Shown here: one piece after another, positions 2,090-3,826 of the stretch | How the letters are laid out: every line of letters begins with the position of its first letter | Position numbering within the stretch: the first letter of the stretch is position 1 | Assembly: GCA_016794525.1 (NCBI GenBank) | Contig: JAEUJY010000064.1 | Span: forward strand, 1-40,000 | Source of the DNA: Myxococcales bacterium | Lineage (GTDB): Bacteria > Myxococcota_A > Polyangia > Haliangiales > Haliangiaceae | Reading direction: 5' to 3' | Length of the DNA: 40,000 bases | Notes under the pieces: generated by a model | Databases searched by the model: none | What the model was told of the DNA's origin: nothing | Seen by the model: only the letters and a program-made list of their open reading frames with translations | Translations under genes and position numbers: made by a program

Positions 2090-2114
2090 GGCCTGATCGC
2101 GCGCCGATCAGGCC
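2090..2114. terminator. Stem-loop between convergent genes
   Basis: A perfect 10-bp stem (GGCCTGATCG with CGATCAGGCC) encloses a 5-base loop. It lies between the sigma-54 activator (+) and the coaE fusion gene (-) and overlaps the stop codon of the latter. There is no T-run on either side, so a role as a bidirectional terminator is inferred from position and symmetry. Confidence 0.6.
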
Positions 2115-3826
2115 AGCGGATCGGGCGGCTCGTCGTCGAGCGCGGGCTCCGCCTCGGCGGCGTCGCCGGGCGCGACCGCGATGACCGCGCCGATCCAGTC
2201 GTCGAAGCGCGGGCAGGGCAGGCCGGCGGCGGCGAGCAGCGCGTGGGTGTCGCTGGCGTCGAGGCGCGCGTTCGACGACGACACCAGCGCCAGCATCGCG
2301 GCCGGCAGCTGCGCCATCCGCTCGAAGCCGGGCGTGCGCAGGATCGCCCGCGCCAGCGGCCGCGGGATCGAGCCGCGCCACGGGTCGCGGCCGGCCAGAT
2401 CGGCCACCCGATCGAGCGCGGCCCGCACCGTCGGCGGATCGGGGTCGACCAGGTGCATGACCCGGCCGGCGGCGCGCGGGTGGGCGCCCAGCGTGGCGCC
2501 GGCGGCGACGACGTACGCCACCGGCAGCACCTGCAGCGGGCCGAGGCCGTCGCCCGGCAGCGGCAGCTGCAGGCTGCCGGCGCGGGCCACCAGCCGGAAC
2601 AGCGCGGTCGCGACGTCGGCCTTGCCGTCGACGGCGTCGCCGACGACGTCGGCCACCCGCAGCACGGTGACCGGCAGGCGGGCCATCGCGCCGACCGCGG
2701 CGCGCTCGGCGTCGTAGGCCGCGCGGTCGTCGGCGCGCGCGAACCGCGGCGGGGTCGGCAGCGGCGCCTCGCGGACGACGCCGCGGCGATCGCCGATCGC
2801 GCGCAGGCTCGACCAGTGGACGACCCGGCGCAGCCGCGGCGCCTCGGCCGCGAGGTCGAGCACGCTGCGGGTGCCGGCGACGCGATCGCGCGAGCGCTGC
2901 TTGGCGTCGCCGCCGCGGGTCACCAGCGCGGCGGCGTGGTGGATCGTCGTCACCCGCGCGCGCAGCGCCAGGTACTCGCGGGTCGACAGGCCCAGGTCCA
3001 TCGCGGCGACGTCGCCGACCAGGTGGCGGAACCGCGCGCGGCTGGCCTCGGGCCACCCCGCGGTCGGCGCCGCCACCGCGGCGTCGTCGGGCACCAGCGC
3101 GCACACCGTCGTCGCCGGGTCGCGCGCCAGGAGCTCGGCGCACAGCCCGATCGCCACCGCGCTCGGCCAGCCGGTCACCAGCACGTCCTCGGCCGGGCTG
3201 TCGGGCGGCGCGACGGCCAGCGGCCCGAACCGCGCCTCGAGCGAGTGCCACAGCCGATCGACCGCGATCGCCAGCGCCGCGCGATCGCCGCTGTTGTCGA
3301 CCACCCAGGTCGCCACCGCCAGCTTGTCGGCCAGCGGCAGCTGCGCGGCCAGGCGGCCCTCGACCGCGTCGGGCGGCAGGTTGTCGCGCGCCGCCAGCCG
3401 CGCGGCCTGGGTCGCCGGATCGACGCTGACCACGATCGTGCCGTCGAGCCCGCGGTGCAGCCCGTTCTCGATCAGCAGCGCCGCCTCGTAGAACACCACC
3501 GGCACGCCGGCGGCGGCGTGGGCGGCGATCGCGGCCTGGGCGGCGGCGGCGATCCGCGGGTGGGTGATGCGGTTCAGGTCGGCGCGCGCGGCGGGATCGG
3601 CGAACACGCGGGCGCCGAGCGCCTTGCGATCGAGCGCGCCGTCGGCGGTCAGGATCTCGGGGCCGAACCGCACCACCAGCTCGCCCAGCGCCGGCTGGCC
3701 CCGGGCCACCACCTCGCGGGCCAGCAGGTCGGCGTCGACGATCGCCGCGCCGCGCTCGCGCAAGAGCGTCGCCACCGTGCTCTTGCCGCTGGCGATGCCG
3801 CCGGTCAGGCCGACTACCTTGACCAC
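2108..3826 (-). CDS. coaE: Dephospho-CoA kinase fused to an SDR/thioester-reductase-like domain
   Basis: The first ~205 residues are a complete dephospho-CoA kinase, the last step of coenzyme A synthesis. The P-loop [12 protein letters not shown] is at residues 6-17, followed by '[10 protein letters not shown]' and 'HPRI'. A second domain of about 340 residues follows from residue ~211. It has an extended SDR fold related to thioester and fatty-acyl-CoA reductases: a beta strand 'DVLVTG', '[20 protein letters not shown]', '[12 protein letters not shown]' and '[11 protein letters not shown]'. The glycine-rich NAD(P) loop is poor, and the catalytic YxxxK reads Y371-D-A-E-R375, so the second domain may be non-catalytic or divergent. 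A normal CoaE has about 200 residues. The start is GTG at 3826. The frame is uninterrupted, so this is a true fusion if the sequence is correct. Confidence 0.88.

Follow-up and report, generated by a model that had tools for sequence, protein, structure and literature searches.

In the window, i.e., the whole 40,000-nucleotide stretch of Myxococcales contig JAEUJY010000064.1 that was analysed, a dephospho-CoA kinase (CoaE) continues in the same reading frame into a reductase-like domain of the SDR type, which raises the question of how an enzyme of CoA synthesis acquired such a tail and what the tail may do for it. The fusion, its position as the sole kinase, the loss of catalytic residues from the tail and an older pairing of the two genes are established by sequence comparison. 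Our confidence is evenly balanced on the account that we put forward, in which the pair was fused once and the tail in the window is a pseudo-reductase that works on CoaE in cis, either as a structural partner or as a ligand-binding domain.

The fusion gene and its two domains

The gene for the 572-amino acid CoaE-SDR protein occupies positions 2108..3826 on the minus strand, as do all of its parts described below, with a GTG start at 3826 and a stop at 2108; its single frame is open over 572 codons without interruption. The original prediction of an intact kinase joined in one frame to a degenerate thioester-reductase-like SDR domain is borne out, since both Pfam domains score above cut-off within this one frame of 572 residues. 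The kinase domain (residues 4-181, positions 3284..3817) is matched by PF01121 with 181.8 bits (gathering cut-off 27; 1.3e-53), and TIGR00152 gives 157.7 bits against a cut-off of 65.55. The Walker A loop GGIASGKS (residues 9-16, 3779..3802) is intact, 76 of the 79 CoaE columns conserved among relatives are kept, and the predicted kinase part matches E. coli CoaE (6ari) with a TMt of 0.86 and 41% identity. Exactly one CoaE is present in 33 of 35 genomes of the order and two in none of the 35; because the window protein is the only CoaE in its genome, it is likely active on dephospho-CoA.

A linker at about residues 201-212 (3191..3226), whose length varies among fused relatives, is marked by a drop of pLDDT to 71 in the block 201-210. 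AlphaFold predicts both domains with confidence (mean pLDDT 89), each of them being well formed, and at a pTM of 0.67 their orientation relative to each other is uncertain; a model made from only two degenerate sequences, those of the window and its nearest relative L072, was poor (pLDDT 52).

The tail (residues 213-557, 2156..3190) is an extended SDR of the thioester-reductase type. PF07993 (NAD_binding_4) matches residues 262-440 with 56.3 bits (cut-off 20.1), and the N-terminal Rossmann part, too diverged for Pfam, is recognised by an NCBIfam model (216-544) and in the structural comparison. The closest solved fold is the myxalamid MxaA terminal reductase 4w4t (VIA Z 31.4 over 336 residues), and this MxaA domain (4u7w/4w4t) together with the PF07993 reductases also provides the best sequence match, the GD, HLV.P and CP motifs being common to MxaA and the tail. 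A special His458/Cys538 signature was considered and dropped, the aligned His and Cys-Pro being present in MxaA as well. Unlike these reductases, the tail lacks the catalytic Tyr/Lys and two loop glycines, it is attached to CoaE whereas the MxaA domain belongs to a carrier-protein assembly line, and it scores 69.9 to 71.5 bits with the thioester-redct model TIGR01746, below the curated cut-off of 213.35. Two further models match in part: the PRK07201 two-domain SDR NF005539 over its first half only, with 113-115 bits against a curated cut-off of 549 set over both domains, and the CoaE-UPF0157 model NF002879 over residues 4-195 only, with 176.2 bits against a curated cut-off of 215 that includes the UPF0157 tail.

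The fused clade and the older gene pair

The original prediction had named absence of the fusion from all relatives as a refuting outcome; the search of related genomes that it called for turned up 20 fused copies. A contig scan of genomes with the window SDR sequence alone gave no matches; an alignment-based scan found the homologues. In most genomes of the family to which the window belongs they are in frame with CoaE, and in other families of the order they are separate, overlapping or adjacent genes; a second collection of named relatives, several of them titled Kofleriaceae, has the same pattern. In trees of the order-level set, built without the long-branch row L029, the 20 fused homologues form one clade with both the SDR (SH-aLRT 98) and CoaE (96), and therefore one fusion event is enough. 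In a tree of all 121 rows, the window pair (the window protein and L072) fell next to L029 and not within the fused clade. The prospect that the fusion is an artefact, with a missed stop, frameshift or misassembly joining two genes, is practically negligible: stop codons are rare at about 79% GC, which allows long chance frames, and an assembly gap of 78 N makes one relative (L064/L160) look split, but twenty in-frame fusions with homologous linker positions in independent assemblies refute this explanation. One fused CoaE-SDR (L033) lies on a contig titled Microthrixaceae (JAGQTK010000044.1), and in the SDR it shares 79% identity with L032 from Myxococcales; the contig is probably mis-binned.

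The fused domain has also been lost again. In L153 and L154 (genomes G011 and G016), which represent two genomes of the family of the window in a genus otherwise carrying the fusion, CoaE ends in a short linker stub and the SDR domain is absent; the tail is thus dispensable there, and the kinase does not always need it.

Beyond the order, 284 Myxococcota genomes were scanned. Among the matches listed, to which all counts in this sentence apply, 88 genomes have a strong SDR-family match together with CoaE; in 64 of them (16 families, with three fused cases included) the SDR follows the CoaE domain on the same strand within 300 bases, and in 24, of which 16 belong to one family, it is unlinked to coaE. 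Outside the fused lineage, the SDR mostly stands as a gene of its own immediately after coaE, so that what was fused had long been a gene pair. The genes around the pair vary by lineage but the pair itself persists, examples being an upstream thiolase gene in L069, a gene for a cytochrome next to L063 and engB/rimI in the window; in L063, coaE and the SDR gene form a two-gene unit between opposite-strand genes. A link between CoaE and the SDR is thus strongly supported at the sequence level by the phylum-wide adjacency and by the retention of the fusion in one clade, and the adjacency across much of the phylum hints at a connection of CoA synthesis with a reductase-like protein. In the open-access papers searched, neither a fused CoaE-SDR protein nor the gene pair is described.

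Around the fusion gene in the window, positions 692-2050 encode an FHA/sigma-54 regulator, 3897-4499 an EngB-like GTPase and 4502-4933 a RimI-like acetyltransferase. L158, a relative that lacks the SDR, likewise has a GTPase and an acetyltransferase of these kinds beside coaE. Several SDR matches of family f23 (G091, G081, G038, G053 and others) contain one TGA inside the match, which may be due to alignment past the stop or to a peculiarity of these genomes.

Loss of the active site

The weakness of the NAD(P) loop noted in the original prediction is confirmed by the alignments: the TGxxGxxG motif is degenerate and reads TGWPSAVA (residues 218-225, 3152..3175), i.e., GxxSxxA instead of GxxGxxG, with two of the three glycines gone and the first one retained. 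The same prediction had placed a YxxxR motif at the active site in the position of YxxxK, and this must be corrected. The Tyr of that motif (Y371-R375, 2702..2716) lies five residues downstream of the catalytic column and aligns with a non-catalytic aromatic residue, and alignment with relatives rules the motif out as an active site. The catalytic Tyr and Lys columns, which belong to a YxxxK motif in most relatives of the order (commonly YEETK), correspond to D366 and A370 within the sequence DDRAA (residues 366-370, 2717..2731). The domain is therefore more degenerate than was thought, and of the catalytic Tyr, Lys and loop glycines only the first glycine is retained. Annotation by similarity would nevertheless name the tail an NAD-dependent reductase despite its lost active site.

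How far these losses extend can be judged from 119 members of the family. The glycine loop is lost in 114 of them, TGxxGxxG being kept only in five separate neighbours of the Myxococcaceae type and in none of the 20 fused or 22 unlinked members. Tyr and Lys are retained together in 16 of the 20 fused members, in 44 of the 77 adjacent ones and in none of the 22 unlinked ones; L030 and L031, two unlinked rows whose motifs are intact, are outgroup paralogues and stand outside these counts. By parsimony, a single change accounts for the glycine loop, and the Tyr/Lys pair needs eight. As read from the alignment, the loop is lost almost throughout the family, and Tyr/Lys were lost repeatedly. The SDRs with every catalytic motif that neighbour coaE in L061, L063, L069, L070 and L060 are the best candidates for the ancestral activity. 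In a carboxylic acid reductase, activity is abolished when the Tyr or the Lys is changed to Ala and drastically reduced when the first two loop glycines are replaced (PMC5826065). These results bear on whether the tail in the window could still be a working reductase with divergent catalytic residues, the fusion only ensuring its co-production with CoA. Most fused relatives retain Tyr and Lys, which makes an active ancestor plausible, and five Myxococcaceae-type neighbours have every motif; the window, however, carries Asp and Ala in the two catalytic columns, and a carboxylic acid reductase with Ala at either of the corresponding positions is inactive (PMC5826065), which makes a working enzyme very improbable.

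A subgroup of coaE-adjacent SDRs (L086, L108, L104, L111 and L113) has a loop that is one residue longer (TGFPGRQ.A) and an Ile/Val-Glu-x-Ser-Leu motif where others have YxxxK.

Constraint on the tail and its possible role

The stem leading to the window and L072 carries 2.24 changes per site in the SDR versus 0.13 in CoaE, compared to 0.54 versus 0.16 and 0.40 versus 0.14 in sister groups. Between the window and L072, dN/dS is about 0.77 for the SDR and 0.55 for CoaE, and it is 0.18-0.41 for the SDR in sister pairs; with third positions at about 97% GC, all of these values are rough. Given the long stem and the raised dN/dS, the constraint on the SDR is clearly relaxed. The losses are uneven along the domain: 23 of 25 conserved columns are kept at residues 261-330 versus 28 of 47 at 331-440 (p = 0.006; p = 0.003 to 0.006 over the region comparisons, with the regions picked after inspection). 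Conserved columns are mostly kept at 261-330 (GDV, MDLGL, TTIHH) and at 441-500, the nucleotide-side GD, MDLGL and HH columns among them; the columns most eroded in the window lineage include those of the substrate-side motif (GEIDK.DGPYYL) together with the Tyr-Lys pair.

The main rival to the pseudo-reductase, possible though not probable in our estimate, is a vestigial remnant, i.e., a domain that lost its function in this lineage after the fusion and is now decaying, carried along by an essential kinase and heading for the deletion that two sister genomes already have. The very long SDR branch next to a normal CoaE branch, the raised dN/dS, the erosion of Tyr/Lys, glycine loop and substrate motif, the linker stubs of L153 and L154 and the eroded SDR of another fused relative (L026) all fit such decay. 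On the other hand, 29 of the 34 conserved-column losses of the window are common to L072, and the conserved columns still present in either of the two are kept in both at 82%, versus 45% identity elsewhere; neither SDR has a stop or frameshift, and the C-terminal residues (DPL) are still conserved. The uneven loss and the holding of the remaining sites therefore favour a non-catalytic domain under selection over plain decay, and the pattern may, though not firmly, reflect a change of role.

An old Myxococcota coaE-SDR gene pair was fused once in one lineage of the order, and in the window protein the SDR part has lost two loop glycines and the catalytic Tyr/Lys, with the kinase intact as the sole CoaE. 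In the pseudo-reductase scheme, the tail would be folded, non-catalytic and still under selection, and would act in cis on the essential kinase as a structural or stability partner; alternatively, it may bind a nucleotide-bearing ligand (CoA, dephospho-CoA or NADP(H)) and so tune CoA production. The original prediction had proposed a narrower role, that of a feedback sensor which binds acyl-CoA and alters kinase activity. The thioester-reductase fold, whose members act on acyl thioesters, and the conserved pairing with CoaE speak for such a sensor, but it is weakened by the loss of the substrate-side motif and by the dispensability of the domain in sister genomes, and we consider it improbable. 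A wider proposal, which we hold tentatively and think somewhat unlikely, is that a reductase-like CoaE partner widespread in Myxococcota, with its NAD(P) loop mostly lost and its catalytic residues repeatedly lost, controls the last step of CoA synthesis through binding of a nucleotide or CoA ligand, and became fused in one lineage and fully non-catalytic in the window. A protein found beside coaE across the phylum, fused to it once and in places non-catalytic, is in any case a specific candidate partner for that last step.

Known proteins offer partial parallels. The 39-kDa subunit of complex I and other atypical SDRs keep the fold for a non-enzymatic role; chains of this type are among the structural matches of the tail, but the subunit has no link to CoaE and its sequence family is different. 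Eukaryotic CoA synthase (mouse 2f6r), like the window protein, contains a CoaE domain within a fusion protein, with the difference that the partner there is the preceding enzyme of the pathway (CoaD activity) and not a reductase-like domain. Closer still is the M. tuberculosis CoaE-UPF0157 fusion (PRK03333 / NF002879), an essential CoaE with an extra C-terminal domain, although UPF0157 is a different family and the window protein matches NF002879 over the kinase only. In the mycobacterial protein, a cis-regulatory role of the tail was tested and ruled out, and the tail is needed for a soluble, active kinase (PMC2765170), which makes it the nearest precedent for a CoaE tail that can be needed for folding.
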